Assembly: GCA_902569465.1 (NCBI GenBank)
Contig: CACFUE010000002.1
Location: forward strand, 1 to 58,226
Direction: 5' to 3'
From: an uncultured Pelagibacteraceae bacterium
Lineage (GTDB): Bacteria; Pseudomonadota; Alphaproteobacteria; Pelagibacterales; Pelagibacteraceae
DNA: 58,226 nt
Below are positions 6,639 through 25,541 of the stretch, one piece after another. Under the pieces are notes generated by a model. That model did not search any database, was not told the origin of the DNA, and worked only from the letters and a program-made list of their open reading frames with translations. The position numbers and the translations under genes are program-made. Position 1 is the first letter of the stretch. The number at the start of each line of letters is the position of its first letter.

Positions 6639-7565
6639 TTAGGCGCTAACTGCAAGTTTAATTGATTGATTTGTGCTAATTTTTTTTGAAATTATTATAT
6701 CTTTTAACTCTAAACTTGTAAAAACAGAACTTGTGGCAAACATTTTTCTTAAAAATGTGTTAGTTAACTGATGGCCACCTTGATGGCAGGTTACTTTTCC
6801 TAAAACTCTTGATCCAGATAACAAAAAGTCTCCAGCTAGATCTAAAATTTTATGATTAACAAATTCTTTGTCGTTTCTTAGGCCATCCTTATTTATTACT
6901 TTCTCATCGTCAACTACTAAAGCATTGTCAAGTGAACCACCTTTAGCAAGTCCATTCTGTTTAATTTTTTCAATATCTTCATATAAACAAAATGTTCTTG
7001 ACTCGATAATTTCTTCCAAATCGTCTTTTTGAAAATTAATCTTATTTTTTTGATTTCCAATAATTTTATTATTATAATTTAATTGAAAACCTACTTCAAA
7101 AGTTAAATCATTGGGTTCAATTGAGATTTTTCTCGAGCCATCTACAAATTCAAAACTATCTACAATTTTTAGATATTTCCTTTTTTTTGTAAGTTCTTTA
7201 ATTTCTACTTTATTTAATTTTGATAAAAAATCTTTAGCTGATCCATCCATTATTGGAATTTCTTCACTATTTATTTCTATAATAGCATTATCAATTTCTG
7301 AGATATAAAGTGCAGCTAGCAAATGTTCTACAGTTGATACCTTAACCCCATTCTCATTTTTTAGAGTAGTACAAAGCTTTGCGGAAGAAACATTTTTGTA
7401 ATTTGCATGCACTAAATTGTTTTCTTTTAGATCGACCCTTTTAAAAACTATTCCAGAGTCAGCTTTTCCCGGTAATATTTTAATTTTACACTCTTTTCCT
7501 GAGTGTAGACCTACTCCCTCAAAACTGATTGGTTTATTTAGTGTTTGTTGGTAAATTTTTAACAT
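6639..7565 (-). CDS. lpxC: UDP-3-O-acyl-N-acetylglucosamine deacetylase LpxC
   Basis: QQTLNKPISFEGVGLHSG, STVEHLLAALY, NHKILDLAGD, CHQGGHQLTN. Confidence 0.95.
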   Translation of the reverse strand: MLKIYQQTLNKPISFEGVGLHSGKECKIKILPGKADSGIVFKRVDLKENNLVHANYKNVSSAKLCTTLKNENGVKVSTVEHLLAALYISEIDNAIIEINSEEIPIMDGSAKDFLSKLNKVEIKELTKKRKYLKIVDSFEFVDGSRKISIEPNDLTFEVGFQLNYNNKIIGNQKNKINFQKDDLEEIIESRTFCLYEDIEKIKQNGLAKGGSLDNALVVDDEKVINKDGLRNDKEFVNHKILDLAGDFLLSGSRVLGKVTCHQGGHQLTNTFLRKMFATSSVFTSLELKDIIISKKISTNQSIKLAVSA

Positions 7566-7631
7566 CCGTAGTTTTATACATAAAAAATAATGAGTTACTA
7601 AAACAACTAATGTTTCTAAAAATAACAGTTT

Positions 7632-8828
7632 TTAATTGAATAGAAGATTGAATAATCTTGAAATTATTGACTTTTTTTCTTGAATTACAGGAATGGCCTC
7701 TTTTTTCCACCCATATTGAACTACCTTGTTTACTTGTTCAAAATTTTTACCAATTTCGTTTTCATCCTCAATATTTAATTCAAATTCACTTTTATTAGAA
7801 AAAAAAATTTTAAAAACCTCAAAAAAAGATTTTTTGCTTAATTTGTCATCAATAAATAAAAAAATTGGGTTTTTTTGTTTTTTAAAAGTAGATACATTTA
7901 TATTTTTCATTAATAATATTTCAGATAATTCCTCAATTCTAGCGCTGGCAATATCTAAAATCAATTTTTTTTCAATTTTTCTGAAATTATTTTCTTCAAA
8001 AAATTCCTTTTCAAGTATTTCATTCGTGAATTGTTTTTCAGAAAAATTTAAATTATGAATAATTTTTTCAATTATTTCTACTTTTAAAGCAGTCACTTTT
8101 GCAATATCATTTATAATTATATTTGTTCCAAAATTAAAATTTTGAATAAATTTTATTGCAGATTTTTCGAAAAATAATACCTGTGAAAAATTTTTGTTTA
8201 TCTGGATTTTAAAAAAACTCTCTAAACTAGGATTTTTGTCTATGAGTTCAACTCCTTCAATAAAATTTTTAGATACAATTTTTTTAATTTTTAAATTACA
8301 TTCTTTAATTGTATTTTCTAAATTTTTTAAGTTATTTCTGTTTATTAAGAAAAAAGATAGTTCATGAGAGTAGAAATTTCCAAATAATCCAATAGGAAGG
8401 TTGTCGATTTGTTTATTATCTAATAAGAATTTTGTATTGAAAATATGAAGTATAGTTTTTTCATTTTCGAATTCATTAATTTTAGACTTAAGAACATTTA
8501 ATATGTAAGTAATATTATCTTTTACTAGCTGGGTACCATTCAATTTCTTAAAACCAGAATAATTATTTATTGAGCAATCAAAATTATCAATGATAATTAT
8601 TACATCTTTAAAAACAGTTTGAAACTTTTGCTCAATATCATAAATATTTTTTTTAAAAATTTTACAAATTAAATCATAATCAGAAATTCGGTTATCCGTT
8701 ATTCCTTGAATTGGAACTGAATTAACATGTAATAATTGAAACTTATTATCTTCCTCGTTAAGACCAACTGCAAAAATAAAATTAGAATTATTAATTTCAA
8801 TAAATAAGATAGTAGATTTAGATTTCAT
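7632..8828 (-). CDS. ftsA: Highly divergent FtsA-like cell division protein
   Basis: Position directly after ftsQ; SHS2-like segment GLFGNFYSHELSFFLINRNNLKNLENTIKEC; segment IQINKNFSQVLFFEKSAIKFIQNFNFGTNIIINDIA matches the layout of FtsA DIGGGTTDIAVF...GGDHVTNDIA; C-terminal amphipathic helix KKSIISRLFNLLFN. Confidence 0.72.
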   Translation of the reverse strand: MKSKSTILFIEINNSNFIFAVGLNEEDNKFQLLHVNSVPIQGITDNRISDYDLICKIFKKNIYDIEQKFQTVFKDVIIIIDNFDCSINNYSGFKKLNGTQLVKDNITYILNVLKSKINEFENEKTILHIFNTKFLLDNKQIDNLPIGLFGNFYSHELSFFLINRNNLKNLENTIKECNLKIKKIVSKNFIEGVELIDKNPSLESFFKIQINKNFSQVLFFEKSAIKFIQNFNFGTNIIINDIAKVTALKVEIIEKIIHNLNFSEKQFTNEILEKEFFEENNFRKIEKKLILDIASARIEELSEILLMKNINVSTFKKQKNPIFLFIDDKLSKKSFFEVFKIFFSNKSEFELNIEDENEIGKNFEQVNKVVQYGWKKEAIPVIQEKKSIISRLFNLLFN

Positions 8829-8831
8829 AAC

Positions 8832-9491
8832 TTACTTTAAAATAAGTTGATCACTAATTCTATAATCAAAAATTTTATATTTTTCAAAATTACCGTCATC
8901 TTTAATTTTAATGAAGTTAATTAGACTTTGCACATAGTTTTTAATAGGTAATTTAATTACTTGATCTTTTTCGGTAATTAAATCCCACCTTTTTGACTCA
9001 AATAAATAGAACGTTTTTATTTGATTAGTAGGAAAATTAGCAGCTTTTAAATAATATAAAAATTCTTTAAAACTCTCCTTGTCTCCAAAAACTAATGGTA
9101 AATTATCGAATTCTTTTTTATTAATAAAATTTATCAACTCACCTTTATTTGTGTAAAATTTTTTCTCCTTTTTATTTTGAATTATAGCTATAGGTTTTTT
9201 TTCAAAAATTTTAACTTTGATTTTATTCGGATAAATTTTCTTAATTTCATAACTATCAATAAAATTTATTTTTTTTAATTTTTCTTCAACTTCTATTTTT
9301 TTAAGGAAGAAAAGATTACGCTCATAAAGGAAAGCTAATTCTCTCTTTATTCTTTCCTCTTTAAGAATTTGGTTATTCTCTATAACTATTTCTTTGATAT
9401 TAAGTTTAAAAATAATATTCAAATCTTTATGAAAATTATATGTACTTAAAAATATTAAAAGTATAAAGGCTACTAAGATTTTTTTATTCAT
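8832..9491 (-). CDS. ftsQ: Cell division protein FtsQ (POTRA domain)
   Basis: Single N-terminal TM, POTRA-like IKEIVIENNQILKEERIKREL...YEIKKIYPNKIKVKIFEKKPIAII; position ddl-ftsQ-ftsA. Confidence 0.8.
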   Translation of the reverse strand: MNKKILVAFILLIFLSTYNFHKDLNIIFKLNIKEIVIENNQILKEERIKRELAFLYERNLFFLKKIEVEEKLKKINFIDSYEIKKIYPNKIKVKIFEKKPIAIIQNKKEKKFYTNKGELINFINKKEFDNLPLVFGDKESFKEFLYYLKAANFPTNQIKTFYLFESKRWDLITEKDQVIKLPIKNYVQSLINFIKIKDDGNFEKYKIFDYRISDQLILK

Positions 9492-10426
9492 CTATTAATG
9501 CTAGCATCTAACAAAATTTTTTCGACTAAGTTTGAAAAATCTATACCATAATAATTTGCAATTTCAGGCACCAAAGAAAGATCTGTCATTCCAGGTTGAG
9601 TATTAATTTCTAGAAGATAAAATCTATTTTTATATAATTTAAAATCAGTTCTAGAAACACCTTTACACCCCAAAGCAATATGTGCCTTTTTTGCAATTTT
9701 AAGAACCTCAATATATTTATTTTTTTTAATATTGGCTGGCATGATATGTTGTGTTTTCGCCTCTTTTGTATATTTAGCCTTGTAATCATAAAATGATCTT
9801 CTGGGAACTAACTCAATTGCTCCAAGAGATTTATTGTTTATTACTGCAACTTGAATTTCTTGTCCTCCAATAAACTGTTCGATTATTAAATCATCATATC
9901 TTTTAAATAATTGTCTTGAAGATCTATTTAACTCTTTAAAGCTCTTACAGATTTTGACACCTAGACTTGATCCCTCACTGACTGGTTTAATAACTACCGG
10001 AAAATTAATATTCTTTTTTTTTAAAAGTTTTTGAATGATATTGTTTGTTCTATCTTTTTTTTTTAAAGAAAAAAATTTAGGCGTTAATATCTTATTACGA
10101 ATAAAAATATTTTTTGAAATTACCTTATTCATACAATTAAAAGAGCTAATTACTCCAGAGTGTGTGTATGGGATCCTCAAATACTCAAAAAAACTCTGAG
10201 CAATGCCATCTTCACCATCTTTCCCGTGTAAAGCATTAAAGATTACTTCAGTTTTATTCCTATTTATTAAGTTAAGATTTTTAAATTTTGGATCAAAAGT
10301 AGAAACTAGATATTTTTTTTTTTTTAAAGCTTTTATACAAGCCTTACCACTATTTAGACTCACTTTTCTCTCACCTGATGTTCCGCCTAAAACTACTAAA
10401 ACTCTTTTAAATTTTTTTTTATTCAC
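9488..10426 (-). CDS. ddl: D-alanine--D-alanine ligase
   Basis: LGGTSGERKVSLNSG, HGKDGEDG, KPVSEGSSLGV, EINTQPGMT. Confidence 0.95.
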   Translation of the reverse strand: MNKKKFKRVLVVLGGTSGERKVSLNSGKACIKALKKKKYLVSTFDPKFKNLNLINRNKTEVIFNALHGKDGEDGIAQSFFEYLRIPYTHSGVISSFNCMNKVISKNIFIRNKILTPKFFSLKKKDRTNNIIQKLLKKKNINFPVVIKPVSEGSSLGVKICKSFKELNRSSRQLFKRYDDLIIEQFIGGQEIQVAVINNKSLGAIELVPRRSFYDYKAKYTKEAKTQHIMPANIKKNKYIEVLKIAKKAHIALGCKGVSRTDFKLYKNRFYLLEINTQPGMTDLSLVPEIANYYGIDFSNLVEKILLDASINR

Positions 10427-11324
10427 CTATAATTTTAATCTCAAGTTCGAGATTGATTCCTGTTTTGTCATTAATTGTTTTTTTTACCTTATTTATCAGC
10501 TTTTCAATATCGGATGAGTTTGCATTTCCGTTATTTACAAAAAAATTGCAGTGTTTTTCTGAAATAAAAGCATCTCCCTCTTTAAATTTATCACATCCAG
10601 TTTCCTTAATAAGCTGCCATGCTTTTTTTTCATTGGTAAAATTTTTAAATGTACTACCGCATGTTTTAATTTGACTTGGTTGAGATTTTTTTTTTTTACT
10701 AATAAAAATATTTAATTTTTTTTCAATATTCTGTTTAAGTTCTTTGACACCTCTTAGCTTTGCTGATGTAATAATAAAATTTGTTGGTAAATTAGTGCCC
10801 CTGTAAAAAAAATCAATTTCCTTTAATTTAATGGTTTTTTCTTTGCATTCACTTATATCTATCACATTTATTGAAACTAATATTTTAGAAACATCGTAAC
10901 CATAACATCCACTATTCATAATCACAGCTCCACCTATAGACCCAGGTATACATGAGAGAAATTCAAAATTTCCAATTTCATTTTCTTTTGCAAAAGTAGA
11001 AATTTTTCGATCTAGAACTGCTGCTCCAGCCTCAATAGTTTGATTATCTATTAGGTTGATTTTAGAAAAATTAGAACCCAACTTTATCACCACTCCTTTT
11101 ACTCCTTTATCTCTTATGAGTGTATTTGAGCCTGCCCCAAGAATTGTAATTTTTAGTTTATCTTTTTTAATTTCTTTTAAAAATTCTATTAATTGTTCTT
11201 TGTTCTTAGGTTTATAAAAATATTCAGCTGGCCCGCCAAGATTAAACCAACTATAATTTGAAAGTCTGGTATTAAAAGAAATATCATCACTAAATTTTTT
11301 GATAAATTTTTCATTTAAATTCAT
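10419..11324 (-). CDS. murB: UDP-N-acetylmuramate dehydrogenase MurB
   Basis: NYSWFNLGGPAEYF, LGAGSNTLIRD, IPGSIGGAVIMNSGCYG. Confidence 0.95.
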   Translation of the reverse strand: MNLNEKFIKKFSDDISFNTRLSNYSWFNLGGPAEYFYKPKNKEQLIEFLKEIKKDKLKITILGAGSNTLIRDKGVKGVVIKLGSNFSKINLIDNQTIEAGAAVLDRKISTFAKENEIGNFEFLSCIPGSIGGAVIMNSGCYGYDVSKILVSINVIDISECKEKTIKLKEIDFFYRGTNLPTNFIITSAKLRGVKELKQNIEKKLNIFISKKKKSQPSQIKTCGSTFKNFTNEKKAWQLIKETGCDKFKEGDAFISEKHCNFFVNNGNANSSDIEKLINKVKKTINDKTGINLELEIKIIGE

Positions 11325-12718
11325 AAAATAGCTTTTAACTCCCGCATATATTTAGAAATAGATCCAGCACCCATACCTATAATAATTTCATTATCAAACA
11401 AGTTTTTTTTAAAAAAATATTTTAATTCAGAAAAATCTTTAATTATTATTACTCGTGTTTTAGATAATTTAGATATCAATTTTGCGAATTCAAATTTATT
11501 AAATCTATGATCTTTTTTTTCACCTGCTGCATACATAGGGCATAGAAGAACAATATCAGAATTAATAAATGATTTTGCGAATTCTTTCTTTAAAGACAGA
11601 ACTCTTGAAAAACGATGTGGCTCAAAAACTGAAACAATTTTCCTGTTTTTATTTACATTTTTTACAGCATCTAATATCGAACTTATTTCTGTTGGATGAT
11701 GAGCATAATCATCGTAAAAATCATTTTGATTTTTCGTAAAAATTTTTGTCATTCGCCTTTGAACTCCTGAAAATTTTTTTAATGACTTTTTAATGACATT
11801 TTGATTCACTCCTAAATTTAAACATACCGTAACTGCAGCAGCCGCATTTAAAACATTGTGCTTTCCTAATAATTTTAATTGAATATTTTTTATCTTTTTG
11901 CTCTTATTATTAAAATCTTTAAAACTTAAATCAAAAAATGAATAATCAATTTTATACTTAATGTTTGAAATTTTATAATTTGAGTCTTTATTTTCACCAT
12001 ATGTTAAAATATTTTTATTTTTAATTTTACTAAATATTTTTTTTATATTTTTACTATCTAAACAAATTATTGACTTTCCTGTAGGTGGTGTTTTTTCGAT
12101 GAATTTTATAAATGATTTTTGAAGATTTTTAAAATTTTTATAAAAGTCAATATGTTCGTAATCTAAGTTAGTAACTATTGAATAATTAATTGGTAGTTTT
12201 AAAAAACTCCCATCTGACTCATCAGCCTCTAAAATAGCCCATTCTCCTTTTCCAAGTTTTGCATTACTGTTAAGTGAGTTTATAACACCGCCGTTTATAA
12301 TTGTTGGATCAAGTTTTTGATCAGATAATATTTTTGAAACTAAAGATGTTGTTGTTGTTTTGCCATGTGAGCCAGTAATTATTATATTTTTTTTCAATGA
12401 AACAACATCTGCTAAAACCTCCGCTCTTGAATAAATTGGTATTTTTTTTTCTTTTCCTGCTTTAATTTCATTATTACTATTTTTGATTGCTGAAGATCTT
12501 ACTAAGATAGTGGAATTTTTAATATTTTTTTTTGAATGGCCTATGAAAACTTTAATTCCTAGTTTTGAACAGCTAATTGTATTTTTATTTTTACTTTGAT
12601 CGCTTCCTTGAATTTTAAAGCCCATGTTTTTCATTATTTGAGCTAAGCCACTCATTCCTATTCCGCCTATACCTATAAAGTGTATAACTTCTTTCTGGCC
12701 TAAATTAATTTTTTTCAT
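11321..12718 (-). CDS. murC: UDP-N-acetylmuramate--L-alanine ligase MurC
   Basis: HFIGIGGIGMSGLAQ, TGSHGKTTTTSL, YDDYAHHPTEI. Confidence 0.96.
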   Translation of the reverse strand: MKKINLGQKEVIHFIGIGGIGMSGLAQIMKNMGFKIQGSDQSKNKNTISCSKLGIKVFIGHSKKNIKNSTILVRSSAIKNSNNEIKAGKEKKIPIYSRAEVLADVVSLKKNIIITGSHGKTTTTSLVSKILSDQKLDPTIINGGVINSLNSNAKLGKGEWAILEADESDGSFLKLPINYSIVTNLDYEHIDFYKNFKNLQKSFIKFIEKTPPTGKSIICLDSKNIKKIFSKIKNKNILTYGENKDSNYKISNIKYKIDYSFFDLSFKDFNNKSKKIKNIQLKLLGKHNVLNAAAAVTVCLNLGVNQNVIKKSLKKFSGVQRRMTKIFTKNQNDFYDDYAHHPTEISSILDAVKNVNKNRKIVSVFEPHRFSRVLSLKKEFAKSFINSDIVLLCPMYAAGEKKDHRFNKFEFAKLISKLSKTRVIIIKDFSELKYFFKKNLFDNEIIIGMGAGSISKYMRELKAIL

Positions 12719-13802
12719 TTAATACCTGTTTTAATATTAAATTAATATTGTTGTAGACATTTTTGTCAGAATATTGTCTTTGAACTTGTATAATTTCATT
12801 TAATATTGAGTTATCTTTGTAAATATTTTCTATTAATTTTAACAGTTTTTGATGCAAGTCCTTTTCCTCAATTAAAAAAGAAATTTTTTTTTGCTCATAA
12901 TGAAGTGCATTTTTCAATTGATGATTATCTGCTGAGGATGGTAAAGGTATTGAAATAAATGGAACTGAAGCATTTGTTAATTCTGCCAACATTGATGAGC
13001 CTGATCTTGTTATAGCTATATCAGCCTTTGAGAAATATTCCTCCAAATTATAACTAAAATTAAAGATTTCACAATCAATGTTATTTTCCCTGTAGAATAA
13101 ATTAAGACTATCATTTTGAATTGATAAGCATTGTTGGTAAATTTTGAGAGATATGCCTTTATTTGAACAGTTACGAAAAATTATTGGGAGTTTCTCAGCA
13201 AAAATTTTAGCTGCTTGACTGCCTCCTAAAACAAGAATTTTAATCAATTGTTTTTTTTCATTTTTTGTATCTAGATGTGGCAAATTTAAAATTTCTTTCT
13301 TTATAATATTTCCTATTTCGAAAATTTTGCTTTCATATCTTTTTGGAATCCCCTCTAGTTCTCTAAAAGAAACAAGGATTTTTTTGGCAAAAGGAAGTAA
13401 ATATCTGTTAGCTTTTCCAATAATTAAATTATTTTCGTAAATTACAAGTTTTATTTTCAAAATAGTTGCAGCTATGCAAATCGGAAAAGATGCATAACCG
13501 CCCATGCCAAAAATAATTTTTGGCCTGTTAAATAATAAAAAAAGCACCGATCTAAAGATGAAAAAAAAAATTAAAATTAAAGAGGAAAATATTGTAAAAA
13601 TATTTTTTTTGTTCAGAGGTACGGAAGGTAAAATTGAAATGTTGAATTTTTGTAAGTTTTTTAAATATTTATTACCTCTCTTATCTGTTACGAGATCAAC
13701 GTCAAACCCTTTTTCAATTAGATGGTTTGCTAAATTATAGCCTGGAAAAACATGTCCACCTGTTCCTCCCACTGCTATTAACGCTTTTATTTTTTTACTC
13801 AT
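12705..13802 (-). CDS. murG: UDP-GlcNAc:lipid I GlcNAc transferase MurG
   Basis: AVGGTGGHVFPG, GMGGYASFP, GGSQAA, ITRSGSSMLAEL. Confidence 0.95.
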   Translation of the reverse strand: MSKKIKALIAVGGTGGHVFPGYNLANHLIEKGFDVDLVTDKRGNKYLKNLQKFNISILPSVPLNKKNIFTIFSSLILIFFFIFRSVLFLLFNRPKIIFGMGGYASFPICIAATILKIKLVIYENNLIIGKANRYLLPFAKKILVSFRELEGIPKRYESKIFEIGNIIKKEILNLPHLDTKNEKKQLIKILVLGGSQAAKIFAEKLPIIFRNCSNKGISLKIYQQCLSIQNDSLNLFYRENNIDCEIFNFSYNLEEYFSKADIAITRSGSSMLAELTNASVPFISIPLPSSADNHQLKNALHYEQKKISFLIEEKDLHQKLLKLIENIYKDNSILNEIIQVQRQYSDKNVYNNINLILKQVLNEKN

Positions 13803-14922
13803 AAAGATAAGTTCTATTTTTTGTGAAATTTAAGATTACACCTGCAAGTATAGCGCTACCAATTAACGAAGATCCCCCATAACTTAGAAATGGTAATGTC
13901 ATACCAGTAGTTGGTATTAAACTAGTGTTCACACCTACATGAATAAAGGTTTGGAATATTAATAAAGAGGAAAGACCACAAAGGGAAACTTTGATCAGTT
14001 GATCTTCCTGGTTAATAGAATTTTTTATTATTCTGAATGAAATATATAAAAATATTAGGATTATAAATATTGAGATTACTGAACCATATTCCTCAGAAAT
14101 AATAGCTATAATATAGTCTGTGTGGGCCTCAGGCACACTGTCCTTCAAAATGCCCTCGCCCATACCTTGACCTGTTAACCCTCCAAGTTTAATAGCGTCA
14201 AGAGCAGATGTTGACTGAAATTTATCACCTTTATTTGGATCAATGAAAGAAACTAGACGATTGATTATATAACCAAATTTTTCAGGCATTAAAAATAATA
14301 AAGAAGTTATCGAGACAAAAAAAACTGAAAAAAATCCAATTATATAAAATAAACTAACACCTGAGATGAATACTGTTGCAATCCAGGTTCCAATCAACAA
14401 TATCGATTGGCCAAGATCCGGTTGATCTATTAAAAGTATAATAACTGAAGTAAGTAGTAAAAAACTAAAAATATATTTTAGTTGAGATTTTTGTAAATCC
14501 TCAAATGTTAAAATTTTTACAGTAACCAAGATGAAAAAAGGTTTAAGAACTTCAATCGGCTGTAACCTAAAAAAATAAAAATCTAACCATCGTCTTGCGC
14601 CCTTAACCTCAACTCCAATTAATGGGACTAAAGATAAACAAATAAAAGAAAGTATGAATAACGGTATTATTAATTTTTTTAAAAGTTTCGTATCGATTGT
14701 TGATATTAAAATCATTAAAATTAATGAGAAAATAGTAAAGATTAAATGTTTTGAGAAGAAGAAATAATAATCTTTATTTAATCGTTCACCTGCTAGTGAT
14801 GATGTGGATGCAAATGAAAAAAACAAACCTAAAAAAAATAAAATTATGAAACAAAAAAATATTTTTTTATCAATGTTGCGCCAATAACTTGAAAGTTTTA
14901 TTTTATAAATATTTTCTTGCAT
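13795..14922 (-). CDS. ftsW: SEDS-family peptidoglycan polymerase FtsW
   Basis: Polytopic SEDS protein; GARRWLDF, QPDLGQSILL, MTLPFLSYGGSSL. Confidence 0.93.
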   Translation of the reverse strand: MQENIYKIKLSSYWRNIDKKIFFCFIILFFLGLFFSFASTSSLAGERLNKDYYFFFSKHLIFTIFSLILMILISTIDTKLLKKLIIPLFILSFICLSLVPLIGVEVKGARRWLDFYFFRLQPIEVLKPFFILVTVKILTFEDLQKSQLKYIFSFLLLTSVIILLIDQPDLGQSILLIGTWIATVFISGVSLFYIIGFFSVFFVSITSLLFLMPEKFGYIINRLVSFIDPNKGDKFQSTSALDAIKLGGLTGQGMGEGILKDSVPEAHTDYIIAIISEEYGSVISIFIILIFLYISFRIIKNSINQEDQLIKVSLCGLSSLLIFQTFIHVGVNTSLIPTTGMTLPFLSYGGSSLIGSAILAGVILNFTKNRTYLYE

Positions 14923-16189
14923 AAAATTTACTTAATCTTTTAAACTCATTTCCACGTTTTTCAAAATTTTGATATTGGTCAAATGAAGCAGATGCTGGGC
15001 TTAGTAAAACGATATTATCTTTTTTTTTAAATAATCTTATATCTTTGCAAATCTGAAAAATTGATCCCTTTAAATTTGTACATACCTCATATTGGACTTG
15101 GTTCCTCAATTGATTTTTAAAAAAGATTGTATTCTTTCCAATTATATAAGATTTAATAATATTTTTTTTTAGATTTTTTAAATTTATTTTATCATTTAAC
15201 TTTGGTAAACCTCCAACAATCCAAAAAATATTTTTTGAGTTTTTTAAAGCATATTTTGTTGACTCAAATGTTGTGGCTTTTGAGTCATTTATAAAAACAC
15301 AATTTTTTTTTTTTAAAAAAATTTCATATCTGTGAGGTAAACCTTTAAATGTATTTGCTGATCTTAAGAAAGATTTTTCCTTAATTCGAAGTAATTTTTG
15401 AAGTGTGTAAACAAAGGACATATTTTCGTCATTAATACTAGATCTTAAATATGAGTTTTTAATTTTATGTTTAATTGCTCTATAGCCTAATAAATCTGGA
15501 AAAATTAATTTTCCAGATAATTTTTTTTCAAGAAATTTTGATCTCAATTTTCTATTTACCAAAGAAAATTGATTTTTATTTTGAAATTTAAACACCTTGA
15601 ATTTAGAATTTATATAATCCGTCATGTTTCTGTGCCAATCTAAGTGGTCATTCGTAATATTTAACAATAAAGCATAGTCAGGTTTAATAAATTTTGAATG
15701 CGAAAGTTGAAAAGATGACGCTTCGATTACTAGAAAATTATTTCTTTTAATATTAAGACTTAGGATTGGTGTACCAATATTACCTCCTAAAAGAGATTTA
15801 TATTTGTTTTTGTTTAATATGTGATTAATTATTTTACAGGTAGTTGACTTCCCATTTGTTCCGGTAACTACAATAGACTTATAAAATTTTTTAGTTAAAA
15901 AAATCAAATCAATATCAGTTATAATTTTATTTTTAAATTTTTTTAGTTTTTTATTATTTTTTGAATTATTTAAACTTACACCTGGGCTCAAAACAATAAA
16001 ATCAACAACGCTCAATACCTTTGTTAAATTTTCTGGTCTTTTATCTCGATATAACCCTTTTTCCTTATCATCCCAAACTTGATAATGCTTAATATTATTT
16101 TTTCTAAAAAAATTAACAACTGATTTGCCTGTTGTTCCTAAACCGTAAACTAAGAAAGAAAGTCTTCTAAAATTTTCAATTTGAGACAT
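14903..16189 (-). CDS. murD: UDP-N-acetylmuramoyl-L-alanine--D-glutamate ligase MurD
   Basis: VVTGTNGKSTTCKI, NDHLDWH, INDSKATTFEST. Confidence 0.94.
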   Translation of the reverse strand: MSQIENFRRLSFLVYGLGTTGKSVVNFFRKNNIKHYQVWDDKEKGLYRDKRPENLTKVLSVVDFIVLSPGVSLNNSKNNKKLKKFKNKIITDIDLIFLTKKFYKSIVVTGTNGKSTTCKIINHILNKNKYKSLLGGNIGTPILSLNIKRNNFLVIEASSFQLSHSKFIKPDYALLLNITNDHLDWHRNMTDYINSKFKVFKFQNKNQFSLVNRKLRSKFLEKKLSGKLIFPDLLGYRAIKHKIKNSYLRSSINDENMSFVYTLQKLLRIKEKSFLRSANTFKGLPHRYEIFLKKKNCVFINDSKATTFESTKYALKNSKNIFWIVGGLPKLNDKINLKNLKKNIIKSYIIGKNTIFFKNQLRNQVQYEVCTNLKGSIFQICKDIRLFKKKDNIVLLSPASASFDQYQNFEKRGNEFKRLSKFYARKYL

Positions 16190-16192
16190 TTT

Positions 16193-17278
16193 TTACCTTA
16201 GTTTTAAAGTCGCTAATCCAACTAAAGCTAAAATAATAGCTATTATCCAGAAACGAATAACTATGGTAGATTCAGCCCAGCCTTTTTTTTCAAAATGATG
16301 GTGAATAGGTGCCATTTTAAATATTCTTTTTCCAGTTAACTTGAAAGATATTACTTGGATGATCACCGAAACAGTTTCAAGAACAAACAGCCCCCCAATT
16401 ATTGCTAAAACTATTTCATGTTTAACAATTATTGCTATCGCTGCTAATGATCCGCCAAGGGAAAGAGAGCCGGTATCGCCCATAAAAATTTTTGCAGGAG
16501 GAGCATTATACCAAAGAAAACCTAAACAAGCTCCTACCACTGCACCACAAAAAATTGATAGTTCTCCAACATCTGGAATATATTGGATTTGCAAATATTC
16601 AGAGAAAATTGTATTTCCAACAACATAAGAAATTAAGGTAAATGAAAGTGCAACCAACATAACCGGAACTGTAGCTAAACCATCAAGACCGTCTGTCAAA
16701 TTGACAGCGTTAGACGCACCTATAATCACAAATAAACCGAATGGGATAAAGAAAAGTCCCATGTTAAATATTAAATTTTTAAAAAAAGGAAAGTAAAGAT
16801 CATAAAGATATTGGTGATTAGAATATTTAATTAATATAAATAAAGCTAAAGACCCAATAATTAACTGACCTGTCAATTTATATCGAGATTGTAATCCTCT
16901 TGAGTTTTTATATCTAATTTTTAATACATCATCTATAAGACCTAGGGCTCCTAGACTTAATGAGACAAAGATTAGCGTCCAAACATATATATTTGTTAAG
17001 TCTGACCATAATAATGTACTAGAAATAATACCGATTATGATTATCACGCCACCCATTGTAGGTGTTCCAGATTTTTTAACTATATGATCAATAGGTCCAT
17101 CTTGCCGAATTGGACCTGTTATCATTTTTTCTGAAAATATTTTTATCAAAGGTGCCCCAATTACAAAGACTACAGTAAGAGAAGTCATGACAGAAAGGCC
17201 TGTTCTAAAAGTTAAATATTTAAAAACATTTAAAAATGAATATTGATCTATTAAAGAAGTGAAAAAATGAAATAGCAT
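16193..17278 (-). CDS. mraY: Phospho-N-acetylmuramoyl-pentapeptide-transferase MraY
   Basis: GTPTMGG, LGLIDD, NAVNLTDGLDGLA, MGDTGSLSLGG, PIHHHFEKKGW. Confidence 0.97.
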   Translation of the reverse strand: MLFHFFTSLIDQYSFLNVFKYLTFRTGLSVMTSLTVVFVIGAPLIKIFSEKMITGPIRQDGPIDHIVKKSGTPTMGGVIIIIGIISSTLLWSDLTNIYVWTLIFVSLSLGALGLIDDVLKIRYKNSRGLQSRYKLTGQLIIGSLALFILIKYSNHQYLYDLYFPFFKNLIFNMGLFFIPFGLFVIIGASNAVNLTDGLDGLATVPVMLVALSFTLISYVVGNTIFSEYLQIQYIPDVGELSIFCGAVVGACLGFLWYNAPPAKIFMGDTGSLSLGGSLAAIAIIVKHEIVLAIIGGLFVLETVSVIIQVISFKLTGKRIFKMAPIHHHFEKKGWAESTIVIRFWIIAIILALVGLATLKLR

Positions 17279-20041
17279 TTATTGGCCTTTAATTATTCTT
17301 TTACTTAAATTGTTTAATCCAGTTGCATTAGATCCTTTAATCATTAGATAATCATTATTAGATATAATATTATTTAAAGTAAAATCTATATCTTCCTCTT
17401 GTTGAAAAATATTGCCACGTTTGTCCTTATCAATATTTTTGTAAGTAATAAGAGTTTTACTGCCCTTAATGAATACTTTATCTATGTCGGAGTTGTTAAT
17501 AACTTTTGATAGATTTTTATGTAGTGACTCGGATTTTCTTCCCAATTCAAGCATGTCCCCAAGTAATAAGTATTTTTTGAATTTTTTTTTTTTGATTGCA
17601 TTAAAATTTATGATTGCGTTTTTGACTGAAAGCGGGTTCGCATTATAACTCTCATCAATTAATTTAAAATTTTTTTTATATCTTTTAATCTTGTGTATCT
17701 TACCCCTGCCCTCTGAAGGTTCGTAATCTTTATAGTATTGGTATATCTTTTTAAGTGATAAATTTAATTCACTTAATATTGCTACAGATGCTAAAACGTT
17801 ATAAATATTTAAATCACCTATTTCTAATTTTAAAACTTTTTTATTAATTTTTAAGATTATTTTTTTGTTTTTAATCTTATTTGATATCGATAAAGGATAA
17901 ATATCGGATTTTTTAGTTTTTCCAAACGTAATTATATTTAGATTTTTAGACTTACCTTTTTTTTTTAAAAAGTTAAAATATTGGTCATCACGATTTAAAA
18001 TGAGGGTGCCTCCCTTCTGTATATTATCTATCATTTCACTTTTAGCATTTGCTATACCTTGCAAATTTTTGAAGTTTTCAATATGAGCCTCAGCTATATT
18101 TGTTATGATCCCTATATTAGGTTTTATAAGTTTTGTAAGTTTGTTTATTTCACCTGCTTTACTCATTCCAACTTCAAAGACGCCAAATTTATGACTAGTG
18201 TTTAACTGCGAAAGACTTAAAGGAACGCCAAAGTGATTATTATAAGATTTTGGGGAACTAAAAGTATTTCCAAAATTTTGTAAAACTACCCCCATTAAAT
18301 TTTTTAAAGAAGTTTTTCCTGCACTTCCAGTGATTGCGATTATTTTTGCTTTTGTATATTTTCTTTTTTTTAAGGCAAACTGATTTAAGAATTTTATTTC
18401 ATTATTAACTTTTAAAGTTTTATGTCTTAATTTTTTCGTATTTTTAGAGGAAACTATATACTGAGCTCCATTATTAAGAGCGTCAGACATAAAATTTACT
18501 CCATCTTTATTCTTTCCTTTAATTGTTAAAAATAAATTATTTTTTTTTATTGTTCTTGAGTCAATAGATAATCCATGAAAATTTTTAAGAGTAGAGGTTT
18601 TGCAAATTTCTCTCAAAATTTTTTTATTTTCTCGAAATGTTTGCTCTTTGTGTGAGATCTTATTTAAATTTAACCTTAACTTATGAATTGTCTCCTTGTC
18701 AGAGATATGTATTACTTTATTTTTGTAAATTTGTTCAGATTCATGTCCTTTTCCAGCAACCAGTATGATTTCATTAGGTTCAGCACTTAAAATAGCTGAT
18801 TTAATTGCAAGGGATCTTTTAGAAATATTAAAACAAGGAGTACTTTTTATATGTTTAAGAATCTCTTTTCTTATACTTTCGGGCCTTTCATTTCTTGGAT
18901 TATCATCTGTAACATAAATTTTTTTACAATTTGAATTTGCTATTTTAGCCATTAAAGGTCTTTTTTTTAAATCTCTGTCGCCACCGCAGCCAAAGACTAA
19001 AGAAATATTTTCACCATATTGATTTTTTAATTCACTTAATACTTCTTTGAGAGCATCAGGTGTATGCGCAAAATCTACAAAAACCCTTATATTATTAGGA
19101 AAAGTTTTTACAAGTTCAAGTCTTCCATCAATATCTTTTATTTCATCTAATTTATTAAATATACTTCTCTCACTTAAATTGCATAATCTAGCAGCTTGCA
19201 CAGCCATGGCAATATTCTTTAATTGAAATTTATTAAATCTATAATTTGATTTTTTATCTATTTTATTTTTAATATCATTAATTTCTAAAAGTTTTAAACT
19301 TTTTTTTTTTGAAATTGATTTCAAAAAATTAAATTCTTTAATATTTTTATCTGAAATAACAAAATTATTTTTGGGTATAATCTTCTTGAATAATATTAAT
19401 TTAGCATTAAGATAGGCCTTCATGGATTTGTGGTAATCAAGATGGTCTTGGCTAAAATTGGTAAAAATTCCAGCTTTAATATTCAAATGATTTAATCTTT
19501 GTTGATGTAAACCATGGCTTGAAGCCTCAATAATAACATTATCTACTTTATTTTTATTAATTTTTTCTAAAGCTTGATGAAGAAAAATAGTATCAGGTGA
19601 AGTGAGATCGGATTTTAATATTTTACCTTTAATTTTAATGCCTAAAGTACCGATGGATGCAACGGATATATTGTTTAGACGTAATATTTGATAAAATAGA
19701 TCAGCCACGGATGTTTTACCATTTGTTCCTGTAACCGCAATTATATTTTTTGGTTTAAATTTATAAAATTTTGAACAAACTTTACTTAAATAATTTCTTA
19801 TATTTGAAGTTTTTACAATGACTATATTTTTATTTACATACTTACAATTTTTAGAACATATAACTGCAATTGCTCCCCTGCGAATGGCTTCCGAAATATA
19901 TTTTTCTCCATTCGTTTTATAACCTTTGATTGCAAAAAAAATAAAACCTTCCTTAACATTTTTACTATTAGAAGCTAGCCCCTTAACTTCAATTTTTTTT
20001 TTATCTTTTGATAGTTTATTTATTAGTTTTTTCAGCAACAT
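17279..20041 (-). CDS. murEF: MurE-MurF fusion: UDP-MurNAc-tripeptide synthetase + UDP-MurNAc-pentapeptide ligase
   Basis: 920 aa single ORF with two Mur ligase units: N-half TGTNGKTSVADL and meso-DAP signature DDNPRNERP; C-half TGSAGKTSLKNLM and ESYNANPLSVKNAI. Confidence 0.94.
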   Translation of the reverse strand: MLLKKLINKLSKDKKKIEVKGLASNSKNVKEGFIFFAIKGYKTNGEKYISEAIRRGAIAVICSKNCKYVNKNIVIVKTSNIRNYLSKVCSKFYKFKPKNIIAVTGTNGKTSVADLFYQILRLNNISVASIGTLGIKIKGKILKSDLTSPDTIFLHQALEKINKNKVDNVIIEASSHGLHQQRLNHLNIKAGIFTNFSQDHLDYHKSMKAYLNAKLILFKKIIPKNNFVISDKNIKEFNFLKSISKKKSLKLLEINDIKNKIDKKSNYRFNKFQLKNIAMAVQAARLCNLSERSIFNKLDEIKDIDGRLELVKTFPNNIRVFVDFAHTPDALKEVLSELKNQYGENISLVFGCGGDRDLKKRPLMAKIANSNCKKIYVTDDNPRNERPESIRKEILKHIKSTPCFNISKRSLAIKSAILSAEPNEIILVAGKGHESEQIYKNKVIHISDKETIHKLRLNLNKISHKEQTFRENKKILREICKTSTLKNFHGLSIDSRTIKKNNLFLTIKGKNKDGVNFMSDALNNGAQYIVSSKNTKKLRHKTLKVNNEIKFLNQFALKKRKYTKAKIIAITGSAGKTSLKNLMGVVLQNFGNTFSSPKSYNNHFGVPLSLSQLNTSHKFGVFEVGMSKAGEINKLTKLIKPNIGIITNIAEAHIENFKNLQGIANAKSEMIDNIQKGGTLILNRDDQYFNFLKKKGKSKNLNIITFGKTKKSDIYPLSISNKIKNKKIILKINKKVLKLEIGDLNIYNVLASVAILSELNLSLKKIYQYYKDYEPSEGRGKIHKIKRYKKNFKLIDESYNANPLSVKNAIINFNAIKKKKFKKYLLLGDMLELGRKSESLHKNLSKVINNSDIDKVFIKGSKTLITYKNIDKDKRGNIFQQEEDIDFTLNNIISNNDYLMIKGSNATGLNNLSKRIIKGQ

Positions 20042-21758
20042 ATTGATAATTAAAGTCTTTATTTTTTATGGCTAAAATTGGTCCAATTTTTTCTATTATT
20101 TTGCCCGCCACATAAACTGAGTTCCATCCTGCCTCATTTCGGGTGCCTTTAATCATCATTCCTCTATAATCATAGATTAAATCTTTTGCTACTTGCGGAT
20201 TTTCTAACATTATCAATAGTGCATACTTTGGCTTTTGAGATGGAAAAATTGATATAAAAGTGTTTAAATTTTTATTATGATCTTTATAGTTTTGTGAAGT
20301 TCCAGTTTTTCCCCCGACATAATAACCATTTATGTCTGCGAGGCTAGCGGTACCGTTTTTATTAGTAACTACTTTTCTGAGCATACTATTAATACTATTA
20401 CTAGTTTCTTGAGAAATTATTCTACCGTATTTTGTTTTTTTTGAATTTTTTATTAAGATTGGCTTTATAAGTTCGCCTCCATTTACCAAAGAAGCATAAA
20501 TAGCTGTTGCTTGTATTGGAGTTGTGGTGATTCCATGACCAAAAGAAACTGTTTCAAGTTTACATTTATTCCAATCAAAATTAATTGGATTGCCAACTTC
20601 TTCCAATTGCAAATCTGGGCTTTTTAGTAAATTAGTCTTGTTGATAAATCTTTTATATTTTTCCTCTCCTATTTTTCTTGCAATAAGTAAGGTTCCAATA
20701 TTCGATGATCTTATAAGAATATCCTCTACTGATAAGTTTTCAGGGAATTTTTTTATATCAGAAATTTCATATTTTGAACATCTAACTGACCTTGGTATAT
20801 TTTTTACAATAGTAGTTGGTTCAACCAAGTTATTGTCTAAAGCCAAAGCAATTGTAAAGGTTTTAAAAATTGATCCTAACTCATATACTCCTTTAGTAAT
20901 TTTATTTAGGTATTTTTGATCTTCTACTTTAACTCTTTTATTTATATCAAAGTTTGGCAGTGAGACTAAAGATAGAATTTCTCCATTATTAACATCCATG
21001 AGTAATGCTCCGCCCCCAGTTGCGCTGAAAGTCTTAAGAGAATTATCCAGCTCTTTGCTTATAAGGTGTTGTATATTTGTATCTAAAGTCAATACCAAAG
21101 GTTTGTTTAGCAAATCTCTATTCTTAAGATCTTTATCAAAAAATTTTTCTACGCCTGAAATTCCGAAATTATCATAATCAACTTGACCAATTATATGACT
21201 AAATAAATTACCGTGAGTGTAAATTCTTGATTGGAACGGCTCAAATATAATTCCTTTTTCTCCTAAGCTCCAAAGTGTCTCTTTTTCTTGTTGGGTAATT
21301 CTTTTTTTTAGGTAAAAATATTTTTTCGAATTTATTTTTTTTTCTATATTTTTTATATTTAATTTAGGAAAATTTATTCTTAAATTAATAAGAAGATTTT
21401 CTTTATTTTTTATTAGTTTTGGATTTATTGCGGCATGATAAGATTTAATATTTCTTGAAATAAGAACACCATTTCTATCGACTATATCCCTTCTTAATAA
21501 AGTAAATTTTTTTACTTCATTTTTTTGATTTAAAACTTCTATTTTGTTAAGGGATATATGAATAATTTTAATACTAAATATTGAAATTAGAGAAAAGAAT
21601 AAGAAAAAGAGTATAAAAATTCTATCTTGTATTGAATTGATTTTTTTTGAAATTTTTCTTTTTTTGTTTGTCTCAAAATAATCTTCAAAATAAAAACTTG
21701 TTTGATTTATATTTTTATTTCTACTTTTTCTGTATTTTTTTACCATTCTCATTTCCAT
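20016..21758 (-). CDS. ftsI: Penicillin-binding protein, FtsI/PBP3-type transpeptidase
   Basis: Active-site motifs GSIFKTFT (SxxK), SSNIGT (SxN), GGKTGTSQ (KTG); position after ftsL. Confidence 0.94.
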   Translation of the reverse strand: MEMRMVKKYRKSRNKNINQTSFYFEDYFETNKKRKISKKINSIQDRIFILFFLFFSLISIFSIKIIHISLNKIEVLNQKNEVKKFTLLRRDIVDRNGVLISRNIKSYHAAINPKLIKNKENLLINLRINFPKLNIKNIEKKINSKKYFYLKKRITQQEKETLWSLGEKGIIFEPFQSRIYTHGNLFSHIIGQVDYDNFGISGVEKFFDKDLKNRDLLNKPLVLTLDTNIQHLISKELDNSLKTFSATGGGALLMDVNNGEILSLVSLPNFDINKRVKVEDQKYLNKITKGVYELGSIFKTFTIALALDNNLVEPTTIVKNIPRSVRCSKYEISDIKKFPENLSVEDILIRSSNIGTLLIARKIGEEKYKRFINKTNLLKSPDLQLEEVGNPINFDWNKCKLETVSFGHGITTTPIQATAIYASLVNGGELIKPILIKNSKKTKYGRIISQETSNSINSMLRKVVTNKNGTASLADINGYYVGGKTGTSQNYKDHNKNLNTFISIFPSQKPKYALLIMLENPQVAKDLIYDYRGMMIKGTRNEAGWNSVYVAGKIIEKIGPILAIKNKDFNYQYVAEKTNK

Positions 21759-22059
21759 GAGTTACTAACTTATTTTTAAGATCTATAAAATTTGATAAAC
21801 TCAAAAAAATCTTAGAGTATTCTATAGGCACATATTTAACTTGATCCAGAAGTTCTACTTTTTTCTCAATAATATCTGGTGAACTTAAATAAGAAAAATC
21901 TAATTGAGACTCATTTAGATCAATTTCTTTCAAGGTAATTTCTTTATTAATACTGTAAATTCTTTTTTCTAATACTCTAGTTTGATTTTTTATAAATGAG
22001 GTTCCAATTAGAAAAGATGAAAATATTATTATTGAAATCAAAATTTTTATTTTAATCAC
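21721..22059 (-). CDS. ftsL: Small single-TM division protein, FtsL-like
   Basis: 112 aa, N-terminal TM then coiled-coil-prone region; position rsmH-?-ftsI. Confidence 0.65.
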   Translation of the reverse strand: MIKIKILISIIIFSSFLIGTSFIKNQTRVLEKRIYSINKEITLKEIDLNESQLDFSYLSSPDIIEKKVELLDQVKYVPIEYSKIFLSLSNFIDLKNKLVTHGNENGKKIQKK

Positions 22060-23062
22060 TCATAGCCTCCAGTTCTAAGTATTTTTTAAACCTTTTAAGC
22101 AATTCATCAGGGTAAAAAAATTTGTTTTTACTTCTTGTTGCAAACCTTAATTTTGCAGATCTAGAGGGATTATTTTTAGCTAATTCAATTTGCGAAGGCT
22201 TGATTATAGTATTTTTATATTTCTCAAAAAGATAATTAAAGTTGGTAATGTTATAAGGTAGGTATCTTGAAGGATTAGATCTATTTTTTGAAAAATTTGA
22301 AAAAAAATACTTAACAATTTTATCTTCAATGGAATGAAATGTTACAATTAGCAGTTTACCTCCAGGCTTCAATATTTTAGTAGCATTTATAATACCATTA
22401 ACTAATTCTGTTATTTCCTTATTAACAAATATCCTGATTGCCTGAAAAGTTTTTGTACATGGATTAATCTTGTAGGCAAATTTTTTTTTTTTGCTTTTTT
22501 CGATGATATTTACTAATTCGTGCACTTTAGTAATTTTCTTTTTTTTTCTTGCCATGACGATATTTTTAGCAATTACATATGCCTCTTTTTCTTCTCCTAA
22601 AATTTTAATGATGGATCTTAATTGATCTTCACTCATATTATTAATTACCTCTTTAGCAGAAATGTCAGTTAGTCCCATTTTCATATCTAAATCATCTCTT
22701 GATTTAAATGAAAAACCCCTCTTAAAATTGTTTAATTGAATAGAGGATAATCCAAGATCAAAAATTATTACATCAACACAGTTCTTAAAAATTGTATCTA
22801 CTTGGCTAAATTTTATTTGATGAAATTGAAATCTATTTTTAAATTTTTTTTTTAGTTTTTTTGCTAATGAGCTTACGGTTCCATCTCTATCTAGTCCTAT
22901 TACTTTTGTTTTAGGGAATTTAAGCAAGGCCTCTGAGTAAGCTCCGCCGCCGAATGTACAATCTATATAAAGCCCGCCTTTTGAAGGAGTTGAGAATTCA
23001 ATTATTTCACTCAACATCACTGGAAAATGATGAGTATCCAGCGATGGTATTTGAGATTTCAT
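22052..23062 (-). CDS. rsmH: 16S rRNA m4C1402 methyltransferase RsmH (MraW)
   Basis: HFPVMLSEIIEF, DCTFGGGAYSEALL, DLGLSSIQL, FHSIEDKIVK. Confidence 0.95.
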   Translation of the reverse strand: MKSQIPSLDTHHFPVMLSEIIEFSTPSKGGLYIDCTFGGGAYSEALLKFPKTKVIGLDRDGTVSSLAKKLKKKFKNRFQFHQIKFSQVDTIFKNCVDVIIFDLGLSSIQLNNFKRGFSFKSRDDLDMKMGLTDISAKEVINNMSEDQLRSIIKILGEEKEAYVIAKNIVMARKKKKITKVHELVNIIEKSKKKKFAYKINPCTKTFQAIRIFVNKEITELVNGIINATKILKPGGKLLIVTFHSIEDKIVKYFFSNFSKNRSNPSRYLPYNITNFNYLFEKYKNTIIKPSQIELAKNNPSRSAKLRFATRSKNKFFYPDELLKRFKKYLELEAMSD

Positions 23063-23080
23063 TTATAATTAATTTAATCA

Positions 23081-24583
23081 TTAAAATTTTTGCCTTCTCA
23101 AGAAAGCAGGAATTTCAAAATCATCTTCTTCGGAATTTTCATGATCGAATAATTGATCAGATTCTTTTTGATCTTCTAAAGATTGATCAAAATTTTCTTC
23201 ATTTTTTTCTTCTGAGAAAAGTTTTGGTGTATATTCCTCTTCAATATTCTCTTGAGAATGATAATCATCTTGAAAACTGTCTTCCTGATCAGCTTTAATA
23301 TCCTCATTTTTTTCAATATAAGATGCACTTTCTATAGAAACACCCTCCGGAATCTGGTTATCAATTTCGTGTTTAAAGGTACTAGATGACATATTGTTTT
23401 CTTCTTTATTCTCATAATTATCAATTAAAGTGTTCTGTTGCTCAGCATTTTTAATTTCGAAACTTTCATCAAGCTTTAAAGCAGTTGCCCCATCAATTGA
23501 GCTAAAAATATTCTGATCTATATTATTTTGAGAAAATAGATTATCAGAAGAACTATTATTCTTATTGTTGGAACCATTTACAACGTTAAAAATTGGTTTG
23601 AGTTCAGATCTAATAATTGATCCTTTAAGTGATGTAGCAACAATAGAAACTCTTATTTTTCCATTCATATTTTCGTCTTTGATTGCTCCAAATATTAATT
23701 CTGCTTCGGGATCTACCTCTGCTCTTATTTTGTTGACTGCTGCATCAACTTCAAAAAGTTTAATATCACTTCCACCTGTAATATTTACAAGCAATCCTTT
23801 AGCACCTTGTAATGTGTATTCATCTATTAATGGATTGTTTAAAGCTAACTCGGTTGCAGCCATTGCCCTATTTTCACCATCAGACTCTCCCGTTCCCATC
23901 ATAGCTTTACCACTAGAACTCATAACTGTTTCAACATCAGCGAAATCTAAATTAATCATTCCTGGTCTAACCATCAAATCAGTAATGCTTTGGACACCAT
24001 GCTTAAGTACGTCGTTTGACAATGAAAATGACTCTTCAAATCCAGTTGCTTCATTCGCAATTTTAAAAAGATTTTGATTTGGCACTACAATAGTCGTATC
24101 TAAATGTTTTTTTAACTCCTCTAAGCCTGCTATTGCTCTTCTCATCCTTTTCGGTCCCTCATAAGAAAATGGTAATGTAGTTACTCCAACTGTTAAAATA
24201 TTCATTTCTCTAGCAGCTCTTGCTATTACATGTGAAGCGCCTGTTCCGGTCCCTCCTCCCATACCTGAAGCAATAAATACCATATTGCTTCCTTGAATAT
24301 AATTTATGATTTCGTTAAGTGACTCATCTGCAGCTGCTTGGCCAATATCATGTTTTGCACCAGCACCAAGACCTTTTGTTAAGTTCATTCCAATTTGTAT
24401 TTTAGCGTCCGCTTTACTCATTTTTAGATCTTGTGCATCAGTGTTTACGGCTACAAACTCAACGCCTTGCATGCCTGCATCTATCATTGCATTAATAGCA
24501 TTCCCTCCTGCTCCTCCAACACCTATCACTAAAATCCTTGGTTTTAATTCTCTTAACTCTCCGCCTCCAACATTTATACTCAT
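23081..24583 (-). CDS. ftsZ: Cell division GTPase FtsZ (start placed at MSINVGGG, not at the longer ORF start)
   Basis: Tubulin signature GGGTGTGA, long acidic linker, C-terminal peptide DDFEIPAFLRRQKF; start gives 4-nt ATGA overlap with the upstream mraZ stop. Confidence 0.97.
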   Translation of the reverse strand: MSINVGGGELRELKPRILVIGVGGAGGNAINAMIDAGMQGVEFVAVNTDAQDLKMSKADAKIQIGMNLTKGLGAGAKHDIGQAAADESLNEIINYIQGSNMVFIASGMGGGTGTGASHVIARAAREMNILTVGVTTLPFSYEGPKRMRRAIAGLEELKKHLDTTIVVPNQNLFKIANEATGFEESFSLSNDVLKHGVQSITDLMVRPGMINLDFADVETVMSSSGKAMMGTGESDGENRAMAATELALNNPLIDEYTLQGAKGLLVNITGGSDIKLFEVDAAVNKIRAEVDPEAELIFGAIKDENMNGKIRVSIVATSLKGSIIRSELKPIFNVVNGSNNKNNSSSDNLFSQNNIDQNIFSSIDGATALKLDESFEIKNAEQQNTLIDNYENKEENNMSSSTFKHEIDNQIPEGVSIESASYIEKNEDIKADQEDSFQDDYHSQENIEEEYTPKLFSEEKNEENFDQSLEDQKESDQLFDHENSEEDDFEIPAFLRRQKF

Positions 24584-25044
24584 GATAACTCCCCTTTCTG
24601 TTTGTTTTCCCATTTAAGGTTTGATCTGTTCTGATATGCTTTTTTTCTCGCCAAAGACTTAAATTTTTCAAAATTTCTTGGTTCCCAAATTTGAAAAGTT
24701 TTTCCTAAACCAACAAATAATAAGTTATTTTTAATTTTTGCATGATTTAAATGTTTTTCTGATAAGGAAACTCTTCCTTCAGTATCAAATTGTAAACTTT
24801 CACTTTCTGACAAAATAGATGTTGCAAAATAATCTCTTTTTTCTTCAAAAGGATTCAACGAGTCGATAGAATTAGTGATTTTCTCAATTCTATCTTGAGA
24901 ACAAGCTTCCAAAGCTTGATGATTAAATGATGGGTAGCTTATAAAACCATTGTAACCCATGGAGTTTAGATAAGATCTAAAAGTGGCTGGCACAGAAACT
25001 CTCCCTTTTTTGTCTAATTTGTTCTCGAAACTTGATAAAAACAT
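24580..25044 (-). CDS. mraZ: Transcriptional regulator MraZ
   Basis: 154 aa AbrB-like double domain: NKLDKKGRVSVPATFR and DTEGRVSLSEKHLNHAKI. Confidence 0.93.
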   Translation of the reverse strand: MFLSSFENKLDKKGRVSVPATFRSYLNSMGYNGFISYPSFNHQALEACSQDRIEKITNSIDSLNPFEEKRDYFATSILSESESLQFDTEGRVSLSEKHLNHAKIKNNLLFVGLGKTFQIWEPRNFEKFKSLARKKAYQNRSNLKWENKQKGELS

Positions 25045-25095
25045 TTAAGTAAAAAATCCTTCTTAATTTATAAATTTTCAAATCACCCTCCGTTA

Positions 25096-25120
25096 TGGGA
25101 TTATTTGGGATAGTATGGGT
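25096..25120. promoter_or_regulatory. Candidate MraZ operator: TGGGA-N5-TGGGA-N5-TGGGT, exact 10-bp period
   Basis: Plus strand tgggattatttgggatagtatgggt; 52-76 nt upstream of mraZ start. Confidence 0.75.
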
Positions 25121-25137
25121 TTTTATAAAATAGTCAA
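25110..25137 (-). promoter_or_regulatory. Candidate sigma70 promoter of mraZ: TTGACT-N16-TACTAT
   Basis: Minus strand -35 at 25137-25132, -10 at 25115-25110, overlapping the TGGG repeats. Confidence 0.55.
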
Positions 25138-25183
25138 TAAGTTTGTATTTATTATTAGTACAAAAGTAGAACGATAAAGCTAG

Positions 25184-25541
25184 GGCCAGATAATTTATAA
25201 GCCGGGTTCTGTCATTGAAGATGTTATTTATCTAGGCTTAAGTTTACACTTTAGCTCAAGCGGTTAACCCAGAAGACTAACTAAAGACGGTTTTTAGCTA
25301 TTATAGCAGTGTCTCCTCTATTTAACCTTGCTCCCAGTGGGGTTTGCCTTGCGTTTTTTGTTACCAAAAAACCGGTGAGCTCTTACCTCACCGTTTCACC
25401 CTTGCCTTGATAAGGCGGTTTATTTTCTGTGGCACTATCCCTAAGGTCACCCTTGCCAGTCGTTAACTGGCACTGTGTCTTTATGGAGCCCGGACTTTCC
25501 TCTGTAGAAAAATACTACAGCAACAATCCAATTATCTGGCC
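25184..25541 (-). ncRNA. rnpB: RNase P RNA (class A)
   Basis: Minus strand contains GAGGAAAGTCCGGGCTCC and AAGGGTGACCTTAGGGATAGTGCCACAGAAA; ends form a 12-bp P1 helix GGCCAGATAATT/AATTATCTGGCC. Confidence 0.93.

Follow-up and report, generated by a model that had tools for sequence, protein, structure and literature searches.

A reversed, promoter-embedded candidate operator for MraZ in front of the division gene cluster of a Pelagibacteraceae bacterium

The mraZ promoter of an uncultured Pelagibacteraceae bacterium carries three TGGG boxes set at an exact 10-bp period, and their reading as the operator of the neighbouring gene's product, MraZ, is well supported by comparison, since the boxes are conserved in relatives and in all 80 SAR11 loci. 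They lie on the template strand of mraZ and enclose the -10 element. This inverted, promoter-embedded arrangement is a lineage-wide alphaproteobacterial variant; the element itself is of a known kind, and the example here is strongly confirmed. The window, meaning the whole stretch of 58,226 nucleotides that was analysed, also holds an upstream open reading frame (uORF) that overlaps the start of mraZ and whose frame is very likely under selection in Pelagibacteraceae.

Probable operator and promoter at mraZ

The triplet spans positions 25,096 to 25,119 and reads TGGG-N6-TGGG-N6-TGGG on the + strand, with box starts at 25,096, 25,106 and 25,116. The first-pass annotation had described a 10-bp-phased TGGG triplet over the mraZ promoter, overlapping the -10 TACTAT downstream of TTGACT and spaced as known MraZ sites are. 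The phasing is indeed exact, the -10 precisely occupies the first gap, and the period is that of the Escherichia coli site. The position over the promoter thus stands, but the orientation had gone unmentioned: mraZ, the -35 and the -10 are all on the minus strand, so the TGGG boxes are on the mraZ template strand. The coding strand reads CCCA-TACTAT-CCCA-AATAAT-CCCA, and the annotated TGGG boxes are the complement of these three CCCA. Along that strand, the -35 element TTGACT (25,132-25,137) is followed by 12 nt, box 1 (25,116-25,119), the -10 element TACTAT (25,110-25,115), box 2 (25,106-25,109), AATAAT, box 3 (25,096-25,099), and then, directly after the operator, a Shine-Dalgarno-like GGAGG (25,087-25,091). 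The -35/-10 spacer is 16 nt, and the mraZ ATG lies 51 nt past the last box. The gene upstream of the promoter, also on the minus strand, is rnpB (RNase P RNA class A, 25,182-25,539; Rfam RF00010, 310 bits), and the rnpB-mraZ interval holding operator and promoter measures 137 bp. A terminator scan found no rho-independent terminator of rnpB overlapping the triplet. A structured leader or riboswitch was also rejected: the leader has no Rfam match and is less structured than shuffled sequences.

The mraZ gene (24,580-25,044, minus strand) encodes 154 amino acids matching Pfam PF02381 (E 6e-18), and its start corresponds to Met1 of E. coli MraZ. The product also matches MraZ structures and keeps both DxxGR motifs, with D11, K13, R15, D87, G90 and R91 invariant in the MraZ of eleven relatives. 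The locus therefore combines TGGG/GTGG boxes of 10-bp period, a position at the mraZ/dcw promoter and a genome encoding a DxxGR MraZ, which are the marks of an MraZ operator. Coding-strand boxes downstream of the -10, a trait of known examples such as that of E. coli, are not seen here, and this trait is not a defining one. In these respects the operator reading of the first-pass annotation is supported: a genuine MraZ is encoded alongside, the period is E. coli-like and the repeats persist in relatives.

In all near relatives the -10 fills a gap between boxes, which makes promoter occlusion the natural reading. MraZ would bind the three boxes, which the 10-bp period places on one face of the helix, and would then cover both the -10 and the start region of the sigma-70 promoter that drives its own gene. 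RNA polymerase would be kept off, which would restrain the transcription of mraZ, of ftsZ and of the cell-wall genes that follow. We infer binding by SAR11 MraZ and repression from these comparisons, and regard an MraZ operator with negative autoregulation as highly probable. MraZ might instead bind at the triplet and activate, for example by positioning the polymerase, and a passage of PMC7761207 does cite an activator role for mycoplasma MraZ. Such an outcome is improbable here, as the boxes flank or abut the -10 and extend past the start, a position typical of occlusion, and in Mycoplasma genitalium the cluster is derepressed when mraZ is mutated (PMC8475190). Still less credible is the suggestion that the boxes serve another regulator or are a structural feature of the promoter, with MraZ uninvolved. 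It draws on the fact that MraZ binding at SAR11 boxes is argued from sequence comparison, but it has to face the strict association of the boxes with mraZ at one site per genome, and a motif and period identical to those of the E. coli MraZ site.

The E. coli mraZ operator, the subject of work by Eraso et al. in 2014, is reportedly made of TGGGN repeats. On the coding strand its sequence is GTGGGAAATTGTGGGGCAAAGTGGG, which follows the -10. It shares with the SAR11 triplet TGGG boxes of 10-bp period directly upstream of mraZ, at an autoregulated dcw promoter. The difference is one of placement: in E. coli the coding strand carries the boxes and they follow the -10, whereas the SAR11 boxes are on the template strand, around the -10 and further upstream. 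The PmraBc promoter of Burkholderia cenocepacia has four repeats with a 10-nt period, and MraZ shifts a fragment carrying them in gels; unlike in SAR11, these boxes lie downstream of the -10 and overlap the start site (PMC7761207). In Mollicutes the MraZ site consists of direct repeats of AAAGTG[T/G] (PMC8475190). Here too there are direct repeats at the mraZ promoter in a reduced genome, and the site is the sole one in the M. genitalium chromosome (PMC8475190), but the box sequence is another one; the comparison took in the repeats, their place at the promoter and their number in the chromosome.

Conservation and orientation of the boxes

At the TGGG density of the window, one would expect about 0.004 such triples on both strands of the 585-kb genome, and about 1e-6 in the 150-bp upstream region. 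The triple occurs once in the genome. It is present in 53 of 61 relatives, including all 16 with at least 90% completeness, always at mraZ and nowhere else; the eight relatives lacking it include six genomes where no mraZ was found. A reversed control pattern gave no match across the 61 relatives. With this low expectation, the single genomic site and the empty control, a chance origin of the triplet is ruled out. A larger MraZ regulon was likewise rejected, as no second triplet exists and only scattered single pairs occur elsewhere in the genome.

The first-pass annotation had called for an alignment of mraZ upstream regions from relatives, and in near relatives the repeats prove fully conserved. 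In the alignment of 32 relatives the columns of all three boxes are invariant while the flanking columns drift. Since the flanks vary and the boxes do not, conservation through a short or recently shared region is rejected. TTGACT stands 18-19 nt upstream of box 1 in all 32 of these loci, and the hexamer in the first gap has the consensus TANNAT. The 80 named SAR11 mraZ loci, among them that of Candidatus Pelagibacter ubique HTCC9565, have without exception exactly three boxes and a TANNNT hexamer in the first gap; TTGAC stands 18-19 nt upstream of box 1 in 79 of them, the remaining locus being truncated. A second family of the order has, at the corresponding position, a longer array with three to five boxes. 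SAR11 genomes are very streamlined; that every member retains this operator base for base suggests that even there the benefit of feedback on division genes outweighs its cost.

The survey of orientation took in mraZ upstream regions from 86 alphaproteobacterial loci, with most families represented once, and 29 from other classes of the phylum. The alphaproteobacterial boxes are on the template strand in 75 regions and on the coding strand in none, with 11 undecided; in the other Proteobacteria, including E. coli, they are on the coding strand in 22 and on the template strand in none, with seven undecided. Shuffling leads one to expect about one template-strand locus among the 86, and of the shuffled sequences only about 1.5 of 86 and 0.3 of 29 are assigned at all. 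Alphaproteobacterial boxes are interleaved with the -35 and -10: a T[AG]N[TA]AT hexamer, resembling TGNTAT, fills a box gap in 58 of 76 loci, and TTGAC begins 6-7 nt before a box (modulo 10) in 53 of 57. With 75 of 86 regions in template-strand orientation, the window represents the normal alphaproteobacterial case of the reversed, promoter-embedded layout. The orientation is opposite to that of E. coli and other non-alphaproteobacterial sites, so the geometry of the contact between MraZ and DNA must differ. No description of operator orientation in Alphaproteobacteria was found in the literature searched, which left out most subscription papers, Eraso et al. 2014 among them, and the reversed arrangement appears undescribed. 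Operator polarity strictly separates Alphaproteobacteria from other Proteobacteria, which gives comparative work a clean way into the question of how the MraZ ring contacts DNA in front of a promoter.

The overlapping upstream reading frame

Immediately past box 3 comes GGAGG with a start codon, which is TTG in the window and GTG or ATG in some other loci; the reading frame that opens there is offset by 1 mod 3 from the mraZ ATG. In the window this uORF covers 24,977-25,081 on the minus strand and has 34 codons in the +1 frame relative to mraZ, from a TTG at 25,081 to a TAG ending at 24,977. Throughout Pelagibacteraceae the frame is kept open. Among loci with a recognisable start, the 1-mod-3 relation holds at spacings of 7, 13, 16, 22, 28, 34, 37, 40, 73, 76 and 79 nt (13 coming from locus L084), and an unconditional search returned 49 loci at 1 mod 3, two at 0 mod 3 and none at 2 mod 3. 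In 24 leaders of equal length the uORF frame is free of stops in every case, against 21-24 with stops in each of the other two frames. Constraint also extends into mraZ itself. Within codons 1-19, wherever a T would create a stop in the uORF frame, 315 codons end in C and two in T, compared with 424 and 1632 later in mraZ and with 29 and 378 for the other contexts within codons 1-19. The p-value of about 1e-180 for this avoidance is nominal, because the test treats related genomes as independent, and tree counts are the safer measure. Both T-ending exceptions belong to L179, the sole Pelagibacteraceae genome seen in which leader ORF and mraZ are joined in one frame, and the C-ending codons at positions 8 and 11 are lost there alone; the constraint is thus absent precisely where the overlap has been lost. 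In the second family of the order, where the leader ORF is in frame with mraZ, early stops interrupt the 1-mod-3 frame, by +29 in 17 of 17 loci. In these loci (L049 and others, for example L045-L052) the upstream TTG would add a hydrophobic N-terminal extension (LLIILITNFFLKM...) to MraZ, conserved at the protein level.

What is kept in the uORF is its openness alone. Leader residues and length vary, so a conserved peptide was rejected; a programmed +1 frameshift from the uORF into mraZ was also discarded, the leaders inspected having no conserved slippery sequence before the ATG. The mraZ leader of Rhodobacter sphaeroides, another alphaproteobacterium, carries an upstream ORF as well (PMC5089854). 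It is a 268-nt leader with a terminator and an sRNA, and its small ORF is confined to that species (PMC5089854), whereas the SAR11 leader is about 50 nt long and its uORF overlaps mraZ across the family.

The uORF stop lies at +59 or +65 in 105 of 106 loci, and the +59 stop is present in every one of the nine genomes that lack the one at +65. Codon 18 of mraZ, at 24,991-24,993 on the minus strand, is GTG in 106 of 106. This GTG is a candidate internal start; it precedes the uORF stop by 14 nt in the window and by 8 or 14 nt in 105 of 106 loci. On a tree of 14.9 substitutions per site its third base never changes, whereas the valine two codons before it accumulates 40 changes; GTG makes up 7% of later mraZ valine codons in Pelagibacteraceae. 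Codon 18 is preceded in 106 of 106 cases by a Shine-Dalgarno-like sequence matching at 4 or more of 6 positions, against a background of 16%, part of this signal being due to the KGR codons. For termination-reinitiation, the stop codon of the upstream ORF should fall no more than about 10-20 nt from the downstream start codon (PMC3711429), and the uORF stop and the codon-18 GTG have this geometry.

From these patterns the function of the uORF would be either a shortened MraZ isoform or a plain damping of MraZ synthesis. To yield the isoform, the strong upstream start would open the ORF out of frame with mraZ, and ribosomes on it would bypass the mraZ ATG, reach their stop 59-65 nt into mraZ and reinitiate at the codon-18 GTG. 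Their product would be an N-terminally shortened MraZ lacking the first DNA-binding motif. Reinitiation at codon 18 is, in our view, possible though on the doubtful side. Equally tentative is the fuller scheme, in which the MraZ operator would be coupled to translational control and a single short mRNA leader would set the ratio of full-length to truncated MraZ. In the damping reading, ribosomes from the upstream start would pass the mraZ start out of frame without reinitiating there, the codon-18 GTG being incidental; this is plausible and comes close to being an even prospect. Selection does hold the frame open through the mraZ start, and the leader is unstructured (z +1.9 against shuffles), which makes attenuation by a hairpin unlikely. 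Yet damping leaves unexplained both the unchanging GTG and the fact that every genome without the +65 stop carries the one at +59. The overlapping uORF and the invariant internal GTG point to an additional regulatory layer on MraZ, of which no earlier description was found in the literature searched, again one that left out most subscription papers.

The gene cluster behind the promoter

Directly downstream of mraZ lies ftsZ (23,081-24,595, minus strand, with an alternative start at 24,613), identified by the Pfam Tubulin and FtsZ_C domains and found in the same order in relatives, which places the operator immediately in front of ftsZ. The rest of the dcw run (6,639-23,062, minus strand) consists of co-directional, nearly gapless ORFs: mraW, an ORF in the ftsL position, ftsI, a murE-murF fusion, mraY, murD, ftsW, murG, murC, murB, ddl, ORFs in the ftsQ and ftsA positions, and lpxC. 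Pfam matches identify mraW, ftsI, the mur ligases, mraY, ftsW, murG, ddl and lpxC; ftsL, ftsA, ftsQ and murB are assigned by position or by reading of the sequence alone. The order mraZ-ftsZ-mraW is found in this bacterial order and in one further family (L066, L080), while mraW comes next after mraZ in nearly all other Alphaproteobacteria and in all other proteobacterial loci examined. In these two groups ftsZ has moved next to mraZ (23,081-25,044 in the window). The murE-murF fusion, seen in this genome, is a single ORF of 920 amino acids with two sets of Mur ligase domains, at 17,279-20,041.
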